Shown piece by piece: positions 14,165 to 22,852 of a stretch of 64,000 nt of DNA (positions are counted from its first letter, which is position 1; every line of letters begins with the position of its first letter). The notes beneath the pieces are model-generated. The model worked only from the letters and a program-made list of their open reading frames with translations, was not told the origin of the DNA and ran no database searches. The position numbers were made by a program, and so were the translations under genes. Source of the stretch: Paucibacter sp. B2R-40 (GTDB lineage: Bacteria > Pseudomonadota > Gammaproteobacteria > Burkholderiales > Burkholderiaceae_C); the NCBI RefSeq assembly GCF_025717555.1, contig NZ_JAJIRP010000016.1, positions 1 to 64,000 on the forward strand. Reading direction: 5' to 3'.

Positions 14165-14878
14165 CTAGCGGTTGTGCCGGTTCGAGCGGCGGCGCGATAC
14201 AAAGCCGATCACGCCCAGTCCAGCCATCAGCAAAGCGTAGCTGCTGGGCTCCGGCACGGCGGTAACCGGCGGCAGGGCGTTGAAGCGCAACAAGTCCTGG
14301 TGATCGGCATTGCTGAGCTTCTCGACTTGATACAGGTTGGCGCCCTTGTAGGCAGCGCCGGCATCCAGGTAGCTGTTGGCCTGGCTCATCAGCGAGGCGT
14401 AATTGGCGCTGCTGTCATTGAGGCTGAAGCCCTGGCTGACATCGCCATAGCTGCCCTCGGTGACGCTGAATTTGCCGGCCTTGCTTTCATGGGTCAACTC
14501 CCACACCGCCAGCTGAAAAGCCGCGCGCTCGGTGTTGGTGTCTACCGATGCATAGCTGGCAGACAGCAGATTTTGCAGATTGCTGCCCTGGCTGGTGTTG
14601 AAACTGCCGACCTGGTAGGTCTGCAGCGAGCTGGAGGTGTACTGCCCCAATTCCACGCAGTAGGCCGAGAAGCTCCTTTTGTCGCTGGTCTCGAAGTTCA
14701 GCAAGCCGGCGGTGACGCCGCTCCTGTTGCTGCTGAATTGTTTGATGTCGAGCTTGACGCCGCCACCGGAAATGCCGGTGTACTTGAGGCTCAAGTCGGT
14801 GGCCAAAGCGCTCGAAGTGACGGTCGCCAAGCCGGCCAGAAGCAATGTTGTGGCAAAAGCAGAGTGGAGTTTTTTCAT
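14165..14878 (-). CDS. PEP-CTERM sorted surface protein with thioester-domain-like motifs
   Basis: A 237-residue exported protein. Residues 1-26 are a signal peptide (cleavage after SALA); the C-terminus has the sorting signal VPEPSS (208-213), a hydrophobic helix (YALLMAGLGVIGFV) and a basic tail, the substrate layout for an exosortase. The ectodomain has SAYCVEL (C74) and AFQLAVWEL (Q122), which resemble the Cys and Gln motifs of thioester (TED) domains; this is pattern similarity only. The start at 14878 gives a normal signal peptide; the frame runs further upstream without one. The XrtB exosortase gene lies 6.4 kb away. Confidence 0.88.
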   Translation of the reverse strand: MKKLHSAFATTLLLAGLATVTSSALATDLSLKYTGISGGGVKLDIKQFSSNRSGVTAGLLNFETSDKRSFSAYCVELGQYTSSSLQTYQVGSFNTSQGSNLQNLLSASYASVDTNTERAAFQLAVWELTHESKAGKFSVTEGSYGDVSQGFSLNDSSANYASLMSQANSYLDAGAAYKGANLYQVEKLSNADHQDLLRFNALPPVTAVPEPSSYALLMAGLGVIGFVSRRRSNRHNR

Positions 14879-15140
14879 GTGACTGTGAGCCGGGCCTGAA
14901 CCCTGGGCTTTTTTCCTCTTGTCCTCGTGACTGAAGCTGCGGACTGTAGGGACAGGCCCTAGCCTGCGCCAGACCTTGCGCCGCACTTGTCACAGTGGTT
15001 GTGAGCTTGTGCACGGGCCAAGCCCCGGTGTTTCATTTGCTTACAGGGTGGCTCTCAAGTGGTATGGGCTGGCGAAGGCAAGCGCACCGTTAAACTCCCG
15101 CTTCTGCGCCGCAGCGTGCGAATCAACGAGATCCTTACCC

Positions 15141-16962: not shown

Positions 16963-18021
16963 ATGAAGCTGAAGACGACTCAACAAGAGCAACAAGAATT
17001 TCTGGGTGCACCCACATCGACGCGCCTGTCCGCCCTGGTTGCGGCCGTGGCGGTGACGGTCTTGCTGGCCGCTTGTGGCGGCGGCAAGTCCGATAAAGCC
17101 TCGCAGACCGCAGCCAAGGTCAATAAAGAAGAAATCACCGTCCACCAGATCAACTTCGTGCTGCAGCGCCAACAAGGCCTCAAGCCCGAGCAAGCCGAAG
17201 CCGCCTCCAAGCAAGTGCTGGAGCGCCTGATCGAGCAAGAACTCGCCGTGCAAAAAGGCCAAGAGCTCAAAATCGACCGCGACCCCAAGGTGGTCCAGCA
17301 GATCGAAGCTGCCAAGCGCGAAATCATCGCCCGCGCCTATGTCGAGCGCATCGGTGACTCGATCGCCAAGCCCACCGCCGAAGAAGTCAGCAAGTACTAC
17401 AACGAAAAGCCCGCGCTCTTCAAAGACCGCCGCATCTTCAGCCTGCAAGAGTTGGCCATCGAGGCCACGCCCGATCAGTTCGGCGCCATTCGCGACAAGC
17501 TGCAGTCCTCCAAGAACATGGCCGAGTTTGCCGAGTTCCTGAAGACCAACAACATCCGCTTCAATGGCAACCAAGCCGTGCGCGCCGCCGAGCAGCTGCC
17601 GCTGGCCGGCCTGGACGCCATCTCCCGCATGAAAGACGGCGACTCCGCCGTCACGCAAACCCCCACCGGCCTGACCGTCTTGTTCCTGGTCGGCTCGCGC
17701 AGCCAGCCGGTCGACGAAGCCCGCGCCAAGCCAGCGATCGAAGCCTTCCTGGGCAACCAGCGCAAGTCCGAGCAAGTGCAAAAAGACATCAAGGCGCTGC
17801 GTGAAGCCGCCAAGATCGAATACATCGGCAAATTCGCCGAAGGTGCACCGGGCAGCGCCGGTGCGGCGGCCTCCGCTGCTGCAACCACGCCAGCCACTCC
17901 CGCCCCGGCCACCACGGACGCGCCCGCAGCGGTAACAGCGCCCGCTGCACCGGCTCCTGTGGCGCCGGCCGCCAGTGGCCTGGATGCCAGCGCCATCTCC
18001 AAAGGCATGGGCCTGAAGTGA
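16963..18021 (+). CDS. epsD: EpsD family periplasmic peptidyl-prolyl isomerase, lipoprotein
   Basis: A 352-residue EpsD protein, a SurA/PpiC-type parvulin-like factor found in exosortase-linked EPS operons. Residues 21-38 form a lipoprotein signal ending in the lipobox LLAAC (C38). The SurA-like N-domain (NKEEITVHQINFVLQRQQ, VLERLIEQELAVQKG) precedes a degenerate parvulin region, and the last 70 residues are an Ala/Pro/Thr-rich tail. The ATG at 16963 is preferred over a GTG at 16936 because it follows an AAGGG. It is the first gene of the epsDEFG-xrtB-epsI series and probably helps fold or assemble the outer-membrane export machinery. Confidence 0.92.
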   Translation: MKLKTTQQEQQEFLGAPTSTRLSALVAAVAVTVLLAACGGGKSDKASQTAAKVNKEEITVHQINFVLQRQQGLKPEQAEAASKQVLERLIEQELAVQKGQELKIDRDPKVVQQIEAAKREIIARAYVERIGDSIAKPTAEEVSKYYNEKPALFKDRRIFSLQELAIEATPDQFGAIRDKLQSSKNMAEFAEFLKTNNIRFNGNQAVRAAEQLPLAGLDAISRMKDGDSAVTQTPTGLTVLFLVGSRSQPVDEARAKPAIEAFLGNQRKSEQVQKDIKALREAAKIEYIGKFAEGAPGSAGAAASAAATTPATPAPATTDAPAAVTAPAAPAPVAPAASGLDASAISKGMGLK

Positions 18022-18062
18022 GCGCCATGACTAGCAAGCGCAACAACAACCACGAACGGACG

Positions 18063-18911
18063 ATGACGATGGCAAAGCTCGCGACGAAGCAAACCCTGCT
18101 GGCTTGTGCGCTGATGGGCGCCCAGGCATTGATGATGACGCCGGCCTTCGCGCAAGCGTCGGCTGCCGCCCCGGCTGCTTCAGCTGAATACCGGCTCGGC
18201 GCCGGAGACGTGATGCGCGTCTCGGTCTACCAGAACCCCGACCTGACGCTGGAGACCCGGGTCTCCGAGAACAACGTCGTGTCCTTCCCATTGCTGGGCA
18301 GCATCAAGGTCGGTGGCTTGAGCGTCACGCAAGCCGAGCAACTGATCACCGACGGCCTGAAAAAAGGCAACTTCGTCAAGAACCCGCAAGTCACCATAGT
18401 GGTTCTGCAGGTCAAGGGCAACCAGGCCAGCGTCTTGGGGCAGGTCAACCGCCCGGGCCGCTACCCGATTGAAACCGCCGACATGCGCCTGACCGACCTG
18501 ATCGCCAATGCTGGCGGCGTGCTCACTGGTGCCGGCTCCGAAACGCTGGTGCTTACCGGCAAGCGCGAAGGCAAGCCCTACCGCCTGGAAATCGACTTGC
18601 CCGGCATCTTCGCCGTCGGCGGCGGCGCGCAAGACGTGTTCATCCAGCATGGCGACGTCGTCTGGGTTGACCGTGCGCCCATGGTCTACATCTACGGCGA
18701 AGTGCAGCGCCCCGGCCCCATGCGCCTGGAGCGCGGCATGACGTTGATGCAAAGCCTGGCCACGGGTGGCGGCATCACCCAGCGCGGTACCGAAAAAGGC
18801 ATCCGCGTGCACCGCAAGAACGCCGACGGCAAGGTCGAAATCATTCAGCTCCCGATGGACGAGAGTTTGAAAGATGGCGACGTTGTGTATGTCAAAGAGA
18901 GTTTGTTCTAA
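18063..18911 (+). CDS. epsE: EpsE family polysaccharide export protein (Wza-like)
   Basis: A 282-residue outer-membrane export component of the Wza/OPX class. A signal peptide (to about residue 30, TPAFA) is followed by the poly-export domain (YRLGAGDVMRVSVYQNPDLTLE) and two SLBB-type repeats (ASVLGQVNRPGRYPI and VYIYGEVQRPGPMRLERGMTL). Unlike E. coli Wza the signal lacks a lipobox cysteine. An in-frame GTG at 18018 overlapping the epsD stop would add 15 residues; the start at 18063 gives a standard signal peptide. It is expected to form the exit channel together with EpsF. Confidence 0.92.
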   Translation: MTMAKLATKQTLLACALMGAQALMMTPAFAQASAAAPAASAEYRLGAGDVMRVSVYQNPDLTLETRVSENNVVSFPLLGSIKVGGLSVTQAEQLITDGLKKGNFVKNPQVTIVVLQVKGNQASVLGQVNRPGRYPIETADMRLTDLIANAGGVLTGAGSETLVLTGKREGKPYRLEIDLPGIFAVGGGAQDVFIQHGDVVWVDRAPMVYIYGEVQRPGPMRLERGMTLMQSLATGGGITQRGTEKGIRVHRKNADGKVEIIQLPMDESLKDGDVVYVKESLF

Positions 18912-18920
18912 GGATTCGGT

Positions 18921-20342
18921 ATGACATTCGGACAATTTATTGCGATCCTTCAAGCCCGCTGGAAGTTGGCTTTAGCGGTCTTTGGCGGGACAGTATTCAT
19001 CGTCATGGTCGTGAGTTTTTTGCTGCCTAAGCAGTACACAGCGACGGCCAGTATTGTTGTTGATGCAAAGCCCGACCCCTATACAGCGATGGGTTACCCT
19101 TCCATGGTGACGCCGGCATTTATGGCAACCCAAGTTGACATTATTCAAAGTGACCGAGTTGCCCTGCGTGTGGTGCGTAGTTTGAGATTGGCGGAAAACC
19201 CACAGGTTCGAGAACAGTGGAAGCAAGCGACAAAAGGTGAAGGCAATATTGAAGTTTGGTTGGCCGAGTCTTTTCAAAAGAATTTGGATGTGCGCCCGTC
19301 GCGTGAATCCAATGTTGTGAATGTTTCTTACAAGGGCTCGGACCCGAAGTTTGCGGCTGGTTTGGCAAATGCCTTTGTGCAAGCCTATCTCGACACGGTT
19401 CTGGAGTTGAAGGTAGACCCGGCCAAGCAGTACAGCAGTTTCTTTGAAACCCGCTCAAAAGAAGCACGAGCAACGCTAGAAGCTGCGCAGGTCAAACTGA
19501 GCGCTTTTCAGCAAGAGAAGGGCATCTTCAACGCAGATGAGCGCCTCGATATTGAGAATGCGAGGCTCAATGAGCTCTCATCGCAATTGGTCGGCTTACA
19601 AGCGCTTTCTTCGGAGTCTGGCAGCCGCAATACCCAGGCGACAGGTTCTTCCGGCGACAAGATGCAAGAGGTGCTGAACAACCCTATCGTTGGTGCACTG
19701 AAGGCTGATCTTTCGCGCGCCGAAGTGAAGTTGCAGGAAGTAAATTCGCGTTTGGGCGACAGTCATCCACAAGTGGTCGAATTGAAGGCAAATATTGCCG
19801 AACTCCGAATCAAAATCAATGAAGAAACTCGTCGGGTCACCACAGGTGTCGGTGTAACGAATAACATTAATCGGCAGCGTGAAACGCAGTTGCGGGCTGA
19901 GCTTGATGCGCAGCGCAAAAAAGTTCTCGGCATGAAGCAAGTTCGCGATGAAGGCATGGTTCTATTGCGCGATGTAGAAAGTGCACAACGCGCCTATGAC
20001 TCTATCCTGCAGCGCTTGACGCAGTCCAGCCTCGACAGTCAGTCCACTCAGAGCAATGTGAATGCTCTGACTATGGCCACGCCACCTATGGATCCGTCGA
20101 ATCCCAAGATGTTGCTTAACGCGATCGTGGCCGTATTTGGCGGCACCTTGTTGGGCGTGATGGTCGCCTTCATTCGGGAGATATCTGACCGTCGCGTGCG
20201 TTCGGTCGAAGACATTTCCAGCGCCCTTGGTATTCCGGTTATCGGAATATTGCCAAAAACAGGTAGCAAGAAATCTGGTCTGCTGGCCGTTGCTGACGCT
20301 CAGCGCCGTGTGATTGGCCACTCGCCTGCTGTTGGCCAGTGA
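18921..20342 (+). CDS. epsF: EpsF family chain-length determinant protein (Wzz-like)
   Basis: A 473-residue inner-membrane polysaccharide co-polymerase. It has an N-terminal membrane segment (about 14-36), the Wzz domain (YTATASIVVD...), a long periplasmic coiled-coil (about 180-370) and a second membrane segment (about 400-420) followed by a cytoplasmic tail. It partners the ATPase EpsG encoded 33 bp downstream and EpsE just upstream. From this gene onwards base composition becomes noticeably more A/T-rich than in epsD, epsE and the flanking housekeeping genes. Confidence 0.93.
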   Translation: MTFGQFIAILQARWKLALAVFGGTVFIVMVVSFLLPKQYTATASIVVDAKPDPYTAMGYPSMVTPAFMATQVDIIQSDRVALRVVRSLRLAENPQVREQWKQATKGEGNIEVWLAESFQKNLDVRPSRESNVVNVSYKGSDPKFAAGLANAFVQAYLDTVLELKVDPAKQYSSFFETRSKEARATLEAAQVKLSAFQQEKGIFNADERLDIENARLNELSSQLVGLQALSSESGSRNTQATGSSGDKMQEVLNNPIVGALKADLSRAEVKLQEVNSRLGDSHPQVVELKANIAELRIKINEETRRVTTGVGVTNNINRQRETQLRAELDAQRKKVLGMKQVRDEGMVLLRDVESAQRAYDSILQRLTQSSLDSQSTQSNVNALTMATPPMDPSNPKMLLNAIVAVFGGTLLGVMVAFIREISDRRVRSVEDISSALGIPVIGILPKTGSKKSGLLAVADAQRRVIGHSPAVGQ

Positions 20343-20375: not shown

Positions 20376-21263
20376 ATGACCGAAGCTAACGCGGCGCAGG
20401 CGAGTGCAAAGGCTGAGCCTGCGCAACAAGATCGTTCCATCGGCGCCATCATTGCCGAAACCAGGGATCTGTCGGCAGATCAAGTTGCCAAGGTGCTCGA
20501 GTACCAGCGCGGCAAGAATGTGCGCTTTGGAGAGGCGGCCATTGCATTGGGCTATGCCAATGCGGACGATGTGCTGTTTGCCTTGGCGCAACAGTTCAAT
20601 TACCCCTATGCGTCCGAAGTCAAGCGCGGTCAAAACCCCGAACTGATTGCCTTGAATGAGCCGTTTTCAGCTCAGGCGGAAATGTTCAGGGCGGTGCGCA
20701 GCCAGGTCATGATGAGGGTCTTCAATGACCTCGACGGCCCACGAAGGGCTTTGGCCGTGATCAGTGCCAACCAAGGGGACGGCAAGACGTTTTTTGCTGC
20801 CAACTTGGCCGTCACTCTGGCGCAATTGGGTGGCCGTACCTTGTTGATCGATGCTGATATGCGAGGCCCGCGCCAACATGAGGTGTTTGGTGTTGCCAAC
20901 ACCGCAGGCTTGTCCGGTATTTTGTCGGGCCGGTCTGAAGGCCAATTGGTCCAGCAAATCACAGCTGTGCCGGGCCTATTCCTGCTTCCGGTTGGCATCA
21001 CGCCTCCAAATCCGCTCGAACTGATCGAGCGGCCCGCTTTTGCATTGCTGATGCGCGAATTGCAGTCCAAGTTCGACTACGTGATCGTTGATACTCCGGC
21101 TGCCGAGCTGGGTTCGGACGCAGTAGTCATTGCATCGCGCTGCGGAGCGGCTTTGCCGATCGCGCGCAAAGGGCAATCAAAGCTGAGCCTATTCCAAGAC
21201 TTGGTCACTGCCTTGACCGATGCGCAGACTCAGGTTACTGGTGCTGTCTTGAACGAATATTGA
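20376..21263 (+). CDS. epsG: EpsG family chain-length-determinant ATPase/kinase with N-terminal MshEN-like domain
   Basis: A 295-residue cytoplasmic partner of EpsF of the bacterial tyrosine-kinase fold. Walker A is NQGDGKT (132-138) and Walker A' is LLIDADMRG (156-164), with VIVDTPA further on. The C-terminus ends at LNEY and has no tyrosine cluster, so classical autophosphorylation sites are missing. Residues 21-44 and 50-73 form two 24-residue repeats of the pattern R-L-G-x5-G-x6-L-x3-L-x2-Q, separated by five residues. This is the layout of the MshEN c-di-GMP-binding domain; the second copy fits well and the first is degenerate (Ser for Arg at 21). Ligand binding is an inference. Confidence 0.92.
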   Translation: MTEANAAQASAKAEPAQQDRSIGAIIAETRDLSADQVAKVLEYQRGKNVRFGEAAIALGYANADDVLFALAQQFNYPYASEVKRGQNPELIALNEPFSAQAEMFRAVRSQVMMRVFNDLDGPRRALAVISANQGDGKTFFAANLAVTLAQLGGRTLLIDADMRGPRQHEVFGVANTAGLSGILSGRSEGQLVQQITAVPGLFLLPVGITPPNPLELIERPAFALLMRELQSKFDYVIVDTPAAELGSDAVVIASRCGAALPIARKGQSKLSLFQDLVTALTDAQTQVTGAVLNEY

Positions 21264-21269
21264 CCGAAC

Positions 21270-22178
21270 ATGTCTCAGACTTCGCCAGCGAGCCCGACGT
21301 TGCCCAATGCTCAAATAGAAGGCTCTCCCGTACTTGAGAAGCAGGATCTAGGCCTGCTCTTGGTTCTGCTGCTTGGCTTTTTGGCCATGTATGTGCCAAC
21401 TTATCTCAATCTTTCTGGTACGGTTTGGGCGAGTGACGAGCAAGGGCATGGGCCAATTATTCTGGCGGTTAGCATTTGGTTGCTGTTTCAGCAGCGGCAT
21501 GTGTTGGCCGCGCTGAAGCCAAAACCTGCTTATGTGGCGGGTGGCTTAAGTTTTTTGCTGGCGATTGTTTTGTATGTATTCGGGCGATCGCAGTCGGTGC
21601 TGCTCTTTGAGGTGTCGTCGCAGATATTCACGCTAATAGCGATTGTTTTGATTGTTCTTGGAACCTCGGCGCTACGCTTGATTTGGTTCCCTTTGTTCTT
21701 TTTGATTTTCATGGTGCCATTGCCTGAAGTCTTGGTAACTTGGTTGACCACACCTTTAAAGTCAGCCGTTTCCGCCGTGGCATCAGGGATCTTGTATCAG
21801 TTGGGTTATCCGATTGGGCGCGCCGGGGTTGTGTTGACCGTTGGCCCCTATCAGCTTTTAGTAGCGGATGCCTGTGCAGGTTTGAACTCCATGTTTACCT
21901 TGGAGGCGCTTGGCCTGCTCTATATGAAGCTCATGAATTACACCTCGGTGGGGCGCAATGTTACGCTCGCCTTGTTGTTGATACCAATTTCTTTTGTGTC
22001 CAATATCGTACGCGTGATGATTTTGGTATTGGTGACCTATCACTTTGGGGATGCAGCCGGACAAGGTTTTGTGCATGGTTTTGCCGGTATGGTTTTGTTC
22101 ATGGTTGCCCTGGTTTCGATGCTCTTGGTAGATAAGTTGCTCAATGTCTTTTGGGATACAGGTAGGGTTGGAAAATGA
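21270..22178 (+). CDS. xrtB: Exosortase B
   Basis: A 302-residue polytopic membrane transpeptidase-like enzyme that recognises PEP-CTERM tails. The catalytic triad is visible: Cys in VADACAGLNSM (C202), Arg in SNIVRVM (R248) and His in QGFVHGFAG (H269), all on the periplasmic side of predicted helices. It starts 6 bp after epsG and overlaps epsI by 4 bp. The arrangement epsDEFG-xrtB-epsI is that of the exosortase B systems of Betaproteobacteria. A candidate substrate is encoded at 14165-14878. Confidence 0.94.
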   Translation: MSQTSPASPTLPNAQIEGSPVLEKQDLGLLLVLLLGFLAMYVPTYLNLSGTVWASDEQGHGPIILAVSIWLLFQQRHVLAALKPKPAYVAGGLSFLLAIVLYVFGRSQSVLLFEVSSQIFTLIAIVLIVLGTSALRLIWFPLFFLIFMVPLPEVLVTWLTTPLKSAVSAVASGILYQLGYPIGRAGVVLTVGPYQLLVADACAGLNSMFTLEALGLLYMKLMNYTSVGRNVTLALLLIPISFVSNIVRVMILVLVTYHFGDAAGQGFVHGFAGMVLFMVALVSMLLVDKLLNVFWDTGRVGK

Positions 22179-22852
22179 AGTACAACCCAATCGCCGTTGT
22201 CGTGATGGCCGTTTTGATGGCAGCCTCGTCCGGGGCTGCACATCTGATGACGCCGACCGTGCATCTGGCGGATAAAGTTGGCCAACCTAATTTGGAGGCC
22301 ATATTTCCCAAGAGTTTTGGTGATTGGGTAATTGATAGAAACACCCCAGTGATATTGCCCGCACCCGATGTGCAGGCGCGCCTGGATAAGATTTACAACC
22401 AAGTGCTCAGTCGCACTTATGTGAATAAGCGCGGCGAGCGAATCATGTTGTCGGTCGCTTATGGCGGCGACCAGTCTGATGGCACCCGCCTGCATCGCCC
22501 GGAAGTGTGTTATCCGGCCCAGGGTTTTCAAATTACATCGAACCGAGCAACGGACTTGCAGTTGCCTGGCAAGAATTTGCATATTCGCCAATTGACTTCC
22601 AAATTGGACCAGCGATTCGAACCAATTACTTATTGGGTGATTGTGGGTGACGAGGCAGTGACTTCCGCAACGCAGCAAAAGCTGGCACAACTTTCCTATG
22701 GGGTGCGCGGCCTGATTCCTGACGGCATGTTGATGCGTGTTTCTTCCATTGATATGGATTCGGAGCGCGCATTTGGTATTCAGAGTGAATTTCTGCAGGC
22801 TTTGGCCTTGGCTGTTCCTCCCGAATCACATGCAAGAATATTCGGCAAGTAG
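22175..22852 (+). CDS. epsI: EpsI, exosortase B-associated periplasmic protein
   Basis: A 225-residue EpsI-family protein with an N-terminal membrane anchor (residues 7-25) and the family core SFGDWVID and HRPEVCYPAQGF (C112). In some exosortases EpsI is fused to the C-terminus of the exosortase; here it is a separate gene overlapping xrtB by 4 bp, so the two probably work together. A direct enzymatic role has not been shown, as far as I know. Confidence 0.92.
   Translation: MKYNPIAVVVMAVLMAASSGAAHLMTPTVHLADKVGQPNLEAIFPKSFGDWVIDRNTPVILPAPDVQARLDKIYNQVLSRTYVNKRGERIMLSVAYGGDQSDGTRLHRPEVCYPAQGFQITSNRATDLQLPGKNLHIRQLTSKLDQRFEPITYWVIVGDEAVTSATQQKLAQLSYGVRGLIPDGMLMRVSSIDMDSERAFGIQSEFLQALALAVPPESHARIFGK

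Follow-up and report, generated by a model that had tools for sequence, protein, structure and literature searches.

The protein encoded at positions 20376-21263 (forward strand) of the window, the 64,000-nucleotide stretch of Paucibacter sp. B2R-40 DNA analysed here, carries at residues 21-44 and 50-73 a 24+5+24 unit that is homologous to the MshEN domain beyond chance, and this unit stands ahead of a domain with the BY-kinase fold. The protein is EpsG-like. We propose that its action on the membrane protein EpsF is gated by c-di-GMP in place of a phosphorylation switch, and from the sequence we rate this predicted binding and its role at somewhat better than even. The MshEN of EpsG is ordinary as a domain hit; it is more interesting as a possible exchange of phosphorylation for c-di-GMP. 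If EpsG senses c-di-GMP, the signal that governs the biofilm lifestyle would act directly on the chain-length machine of an exosortase-linked exopolysaccharide (EPS) pathway. A second messenger would then have replaced protein phosphorylation inside one conserved machine, for which the natural members without a Walker A lysine are test cases. The question of what drives Wzc-like cycling without a tyrosine tail is thereby made directly testable.

The epsG-like gene starts with ATG, encodes 295 amino acids and lies in the gene order epsE-epsF-epsG-xrtB-epsI, all on the forward strand. Its neighbours each score above the cut-off of their model: epsE (18018-18911), a polysaccharide export (OPX) protein (TIGR03028, 329.5 bits); epsF (18921-20342), a chain-length (PCP) protein with Wzz and GNVR domains and the membrane partner without kinase (TIGR03017, 555 bits); xrtB (21270-22178), exosortase B (TIGR03113, 350 bits); and epsI, type B (22175-22852; NF045609, 293 bits). 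The EpsG equivalog model, TIGR03029, aligns with the protein over nearly the whole model (positions 2-274 of 274) with 281 bits, under its cut-off of 313.8, and the protein is identified as EpsG-like by this alignment and by the synteny epsE-epsF-epsG-exosortase. In 29 of 30 named loci EpsG is preceded on its own strand, some 1.5 kb upstream, by an EpsF homologue. The closest named relatives include Roseateles (L034, 81% identity, and L039). Across 299 sampled genomes of the bacterial family, TIGR03029 exceeds its cut-off in 32 and reaches E ≤ 1e-30 in 142, the weaker matches including plain BY-kinases.

The first-pass annotation had placed a tandem MshEN-like domain ahead of the ATPase domain, and profiles, fold and conservation now support this homology well. 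Motif I, SIGAIIAETRDLSADQVAKVLEYQ, occupies residues 21-44 (20436-20507) and motif II, RFGEAAIALGYANADDVLFALAQQ, residues 50-73 (20523-20594), with the five-residue spacer RGKNV between them (residues 45-49; 20508-20522). The translation bears out the two 24-residue units and their gap, as well as the residues that had been singled out: glycine at position 3 of both (G23, G52), a leucine or valine at position 17 (V37, V66), leucine at 21 (L41, L70) and glutamine at 24 (Q44, Q73), with R50 and G59 also in the second unit and Ser21 standing for arginine in the first. The residues described as hydrophobic at positions 6 and 7 are there (I/A in motif I, A/I in motif II) but are only weakly so, and position 10 of motif I is arginine (R30), where the motif has glycine. 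The BY-kinase-fold domain follows at residues 84-295 (20625-21260). Within it lie ExxRxxR (residues 102-108; 20679-20699), the motif through which BY-kinases oligomerise, Walker A SANQGDGKT (130-138; 20763-20789), Walker A' TLLIDADMR (155-163; 20838-20864) and Walker B YVIVDTP (235-241; 21078-21098), all on the forward strand.

Comparisons were made with a family set drawn from 210 matched loci, 164 of them of the full type (match beginning at query residue 75 or before), from which duplicate removal left 160 rows. Two fused kinases without the domain (L074, L094) and one protein that has no N-domain and matches from residue 46 (L132) were dropped, giving 157 proteins including the window EpsG. 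The set is biased, in that a locus entered it on account of a good TIGR03029 score and of its full length. Matches to TIGR03029 begin at model positions 1-5 in 21 of the 22 cases of one search set (the other at 38), and at positions 1-8 in all cases among the matches listed with E ≤ 4.4e-57; the score limits favour proteins that bear the N-domain, and such start positions give no unbiased share of EpsG without it. Nine further kinases were chosen by hand among the partial matches listed in the TIGR03029 search of the 299 genomes: seven fused Wzc-type kinases, and two stand-alone EpsG-like paralogues (L257 and L260) with neither an MshEN-like N-terminus nor a tyrosine tail, whose Walker A motifs read GDGKS and GDGRS respectively. 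These two show that the domain can be absent from EpsG-like proteins.

Evidence for homology comes from several profile comparisons. NCBIfam NF053729 (cyclic di-GMP-binding domain, MshE-related) matches the window protein with E 4e-6, aligning residues 22-73 with model positions 2-53 of 53. Its score, 26.5 bits for the whole protein and 30.7 for the domain alone, lies under the curated cut-off of 38, so that the profile match proposed as a check by the first-pass annotation was found in this model and in a family profile, but below the curated limit of the former. The same model reaches E ≤ 0.01 in 94 of 95 diverse EpsG N-domains, and a tally of scan matches against EpsG locations puts 26 EpsG copies, spread over 25 of the 52 genomes, above the cut-off. 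A profile built from the 95 N-domains and run against solved structures finds PilF (6f8l) at E 2.6e-15 and MshE (5htl) at E 3e-9; all eight solved-structure sequences under E 0.01 are PilF, PilB or MshE. In the reverse direction, 23 MshENs from other proteins of these genomes were made into a model, which gives the window N-domain 19.3 bits. With this model 156 of the 157 EpsG N-domains, the exception being L154, outscore all 3,140 shuffled domains, of which 2,769 were reported with 11.7 bits as their top score, and 156 of 157 lie above the kinase parts used as a second control (70 reported, best 2.5 bits).

Pfam PF05157 matched neither the EpsG protein nor any of the 95 N-domains in a Pfam scan. 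The genome's own MshEN ATPase (L001, C48:160850-161188) is a secretion-type protein in which four consecutive MshEN-type motifs, residues 198-311, precede the ATPase domain, and here PF05157 covers residues 312-395. Since it starts just after the motifs, PF05157 appears to model a part that EpsG is without, and its failure to match would then not speak against an MshEN in EpsG. The MshEN_C subdomain is missing from EpsG. The Pfam model FumaraseC_C matched 19 of the 95 N-domains (best E 3e-4), and fumarases, which have a similar helix arrangement, rank after MshENs in the fold lists.

The structural comparison proposed by the first-pass annotation also came out in favour of MshE. The AlphaFold model of the protein (mean pLDDT 91) has four N-terminal helices, at residues 22-29, 34-47, 51-57 and 63-73, in a domain that was also folded alone, and the N-domain is thus predicted to be a four-helix bundle like that of 5HTL. 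Foldseek places MshE 5htl, with c-di-GMP, first for the N-domain model (probability 1.00, rmsd 1.6, 58 columns). It reports no match at E ≤ 0.001 for this 77-residue model, a length that gives poor E-values. With VIA-align the best match is again MshE (Z 8.1, rmsd 4.5 over 68), ahead of the best fumarase (Z 5.7); a Z of 8.1 is modest, values under 13 being compatible with a common arrangement in helical bundles. The whole-protein VIA-align list holds rows for the kinase part only, for which reason the N-domain was folded separately.

The N-terminal domain of Vibrio cholerae MshE (PDB 5HTL) shares with EpsG the 24+5+24 layout, Gly3, Gln24, hydrophobic residues at positions 2, 17 and 21 and the four-helix bundle. 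Unlike MshE, EpsG has serine for arginine in motif I, phenylalanine for leucine at position 2 of motif II (II-2) and no MshEN_C subdomain, and its domain is fused to a BY-kinase fold rather than to a pilus or secretion ATPase. NfrB, the c-di-GMP-activated EPS synthase of E. coli, resembles EpsG in having an MshEN attached to exopolysaccharide machinery, and the NCBI model of NfrB is matched by 37 of the 95 EpsG N-domains; in NfrB the MshEN sits at the C-terminus of a glycosyltransferase, whereas in EpsG it stands at the N-terminus of a co-polymerase partner. We drew on passages of Wang 2016 (PMC5013675), Neissner 2025 (PMC12002112), Junkermeier 2021 (PMC8669469), PMC11731258, PMC9850573 and PMC9601211. 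Exopolysaccharide biosynthesis in Methylobacillus sp. is among the functions that the passages from Wang 2016 (PMC5013675) give for MshEN-containing proteins, citing Yoshida 2003, and we infer that the Methylobacillus protein, unnamed in that text, is EpsG. The MshEN assignment had thus been foreseen for a relative; new here are the erosion of the kinase and the variant pocket. Among the open-licence papers listed by our searches we found no link between EpsG and c-di-GMP beyond this citation, and nothing on loss of the Walker A lysine in EpsG, on the Phe/Ser variant or on c-di-GMP binding by EpsG. The passages of PMC4195743 use epsG for a glucosyltransferase gene and hold no mention of c-di-GMP.

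Ligand contacts lie at positions 1, 2, 3, 17, 21 and 24 of each motif, according to the passages from Wang 2016 (PMC5013675). Across 131 non-redundant EpsG, these contact columns vary less than the other 41 of the 53 columns (p 3e-4); the five most conserved of all, F51, G23, G52, Q73 and L70, are contacts, and Q44 ranks seventh. G23, G52, Q44 and Q73 are jointly present in 149 of the 157 EpsG. The conservation of R50 and Q73, which the first-pass annotation had held to be informative, is high: R or K occupies position 1 of motif II in 136 of 157, and Q73 is found in 130 of 131 non-redundant sequences. The hydrophobic contacts of the window protein are I22, V37 and L41 in motif I and F51, V66 and L70 in motif II. 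A contact core of Gly3, Gln24 and hydrophobic residues at 2, 17 and 21 in both motifs, with alanine permitted at 17, is present in 138 of 157 EpsG and fails in 19; this test is looser than the Wang motif, which even in relaxed form is matched in both halves by only 4 of 157 (motif I by 6, motif II by 104). In the window protein, motif II has the arginine of position 1 (R50; Arg, Lys or Leu in the extended form), and motif I, with S21, has none of these.

Such conservation could be structural rather than driven by a ligand, and the domain might be a retired MshEN, free of ligand, on which EpsF or another partner docks, in the manner of XpsE and PilF GSPII-A. Non-binding MshENs are thus known, the domain sits at the presumed EpsF/kinase junction, the NF053729 score of the window protein is under the cut-off, and the arginine or lysine of motif I is lost in 138 of 157 EpsG. 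Against this, XpsE (in the passages of Wang 2016, PMC5013675) and GSPII-A (in the portions of its literature consulted), both non-binders, are altered in the Gly3/Gln24 set, which 149 of the 157 EpsG keep, including all 12 whose Walker A holds neither lysine nor arginine. We regard a docking surface as unlikely, though it is to be taken seriously. Those portions of the PilF literature also report that binding stayed absent when the whole consensus was put back into GSPII-A, where a helix N-cap, or capped extra turn, blocks the pocket, and that in GSPII-B an extra helix turn unwinds upon c-di-GMP binding. Since repair of the consensus was ineffective and an N-cap blocks the site, motif residues alone are no proof of binding. 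In EpsG, S21 is likely to be a helix N-cap, placed differently from that of GSPII-A; in the model it lies just before helix 1, which would start about where bound c-di-GMP requires.

A c-di-GMP gate would fit the state of the kinase half. VIA-align superposes the C-terminal domain on CapA1B1 (4jlv; Z 30.9, rmsd 1.5 over 202 residues) and Wzc (7nhr; Z 29.8). EpsG shares the kinase fold, the Walker motifs and ExxRxxR with CapA/CapB and the Wzc BY-kinases, and CapA and CapB form a split pair of PCP and kinase, as do EpsF and EpsG. It differs from them in having an extra N-terminal sensor-like domain and no tyrosine cluster, and in that the Walker A lysine is often replaced among its relatives. 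As the first-pass annotation had noted, the window protein lacks the C-terminal tyrosine cluster, the only tyrosine within its last 25 residues being the final one, and at least three tyrosines in that stretch occur in 0 of 157 EpsG. The seven fused Wzc-type kinases of the same bacterial family all have 6-9. Among 46 other BY-kinases, which are the non-full matches rather than a designed sample, 25 have at least three and 11 have none, and EpsG is thus not alone in lacking the tail. One EpsG, L134, has a C-terminus that runs 108 residues past the usual end.

In the Walker A lysine column, 94 of the 157 EpsG have K, 51 have R and 12 have another residue, so that the lysine is replaced in 63; of the 46 other BY-kinases, 45 have K. 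At D161, the second of the Walker A' aspartates, 27 of 157 carry Asn. A quick tree of 107 rows, several of them long, gives as rough counts of changes 8 for Walker A K/not-K and 17 for D161, compared with 0 for R108, 1 for D159 and 3 for D239, and 1, 5, 1 and 1 for G23, Q44, G52 and Q73. Hence the family is losing its hold on the catalytic lysine and on D161 while the remaining nucleotide site largely holds; R108, D159 and D239 vary as little as the sensor, so that the site as a whole is not in decay. The four MshEN Gly/Gln residues are retained by each of the 12 EpsG whose Walker A residue is other than K or R; NF053729 was run on 10 of these, of which 7 score above the cut-off and the other 3 score 35-37 bits. 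Five of the 12 (L025, L026, L031, L137 and L114) are without the Walker B Asp as well as the Walker A Lys and keep all four Gly/Gln; four of the five have a Lys-Leu-Gly motif I, and in L114 position 21 of motif I is Ala.

The window EpsG retains Lys137, and its kinase may thus be live. The N-domain might then only tune an active tyrosine kinase that acts on other proteins. The window protein has intact Walker A, A' and B motifs and an intact ExxRxxR, the fold is that of CapB and Wzc, and D159 and R108 are nearly constant in the family (of the ExxRxxR residues, E102 is found in 151, R105 in 153 and R108 in 157 of 157). Set against the absence of a tyrosine cluster from every one of the 157 and the replacement of the Walker A lysine in 63, such an activity seems to us improbable as the explanation of the domain.

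BY-kinase octamers such as those of Wzc and CapAB cycle through phosphorylation of the C-terminal tyrosine cluster. Because EpsG has no such cluster and many members are without the Walker A lysine, c-di-GMP is proposed to replace tyrosine autophosphorylation as the switch. EpsF in the membrane and EpsG in the cytoplasm would make up a split Wzc-type co-polymerase in which the MshEN-like unit lies where the two halves part, and the four-helix bundle would bind one c-di-GMP. Carried over by alignment from the description of 5HTL, guanine 1 would adjoin S21, F51, V37 and L41 and guanine 2 would adjoin R50, I22, V66 and L70; Q44 and Q73 would hold the ribose-phosphates, and the backbone at G23 and G52 would read the bases. 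The bundle is placed where the cytoplasmic tail of EpsF should meet the kinase-fold domain, so that ligand binding would set the packing of EpsG on EpsF and thereby polymer growth. As there is no tail that could be phosphorylated, the simplest switch left would be one in which the ligand alters this junction. Two findings lower our confidence in the c-di-GMP gate and in the outright swap described below: part of the kinase site varies as little as the sensor, and tyrosine tails are missing from some other BY-kinases too. By analogy with NfrB, the expected effect of c-di-GMP is activation. More tentatively, and with the balance leaning against it, the lineage may have swapped one switch for the other outright, the kinase of some species, from which the lysine of Walker A and the aspartate of Walker B are both gone, being ATP-dead and acting purely as a c-di-GMP-gated clamp on EpsF. 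In all, the MshEN homology of the earlier interpretation is well supported, and c-di-GMP binding and chain-length switching stay as candidate functions.

The pocket itself is a variant. Position 1 of motif I is arginine or lysine in 19 of the 157 EpsG and mostly serine otherwise (88). Position II-2 is Phe in 157 of 157. Among 40 MshENs of other proteins from the same genomes, position I-1 is R or K in 35 and II-2 is Leu in 33 and Phe in 0; these 40 are the top of the NF053729 scan, lean to consensus, were not annotated singly and include 17 with a longer spacer, and II-2 is likewise never Phe among the remaining 23, which have the five-residue spacer. The passages of Wang 2016 (PMC5013675) place Arg9 and Leu39 of 5HTL, the residues at I-1 and II-2, on opposite faces of guanine 1, and report that the isolated N part of MshE binds c-di-GMP at 0.35 uM and that Arg9 mutants lose no more than about fivefold in binding. 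As reported for PilF, the MshEN-type site of Thermus GSPII-B binds c-di-GMP at 6 nM without the arginine; it has Lys/Leu at position 1 and Leu at II-2, where EpsG has Ser and Phe. These precedents suggest that loss of the arginine would be tolerable for a c-di-GMP site in EpsG, and we infer that stacking by Phe51 may compensate for it.

As the arginine or lysine of motif I is missing from 138 of 157, ligand specificity could differ, and the pocket might read another cyclic dinucleotide such as 3',3'-cGAMP: Ser21, capping helix 1, could engage the amide of residue 24, by which guanine O6 is otherwise read. Helix 1 starts at residue 22 in the AlphaFold model, I-1 is Ser, Thr, Asp, Asn or Pro in 118 of 157, II-2 is always Phe as described above, and MshE itself binds cGAMP weakly in the passages of Wang 2016 (PMC5013675). 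This idea, which has no direct support, is in our view a long shot, given that 6 of the 12 Walker A-lost EpsG carry Lys at I-1 and that the many GGDEF matches in the genome fit c-di-GMP. The genome (5.6 Mb) has 63 GGDEF match rows, some of them split domains, and 24 EAL rows, none of either on the contig of the window, and can make c-di-GMP within a large network. Chance likeness of two helical hairpins, for which the weak single-sequence similarity to MshE (phmmer, E 0.043) might be adduced, was rejected with near certainty on the profile E-values, the 94 of 95 members matched, the shuffles and the fold.

One further observation concerns the exosortase. On the reverse strand of the window, the open reading frame at 14165-14986 ends in a tail, VPEPSSYALLMAGLGVIGFVSRRR, that by eye is PEP-CTERM-like, and its product is a likely substrate of the exosortase encoded at 21270-22178.
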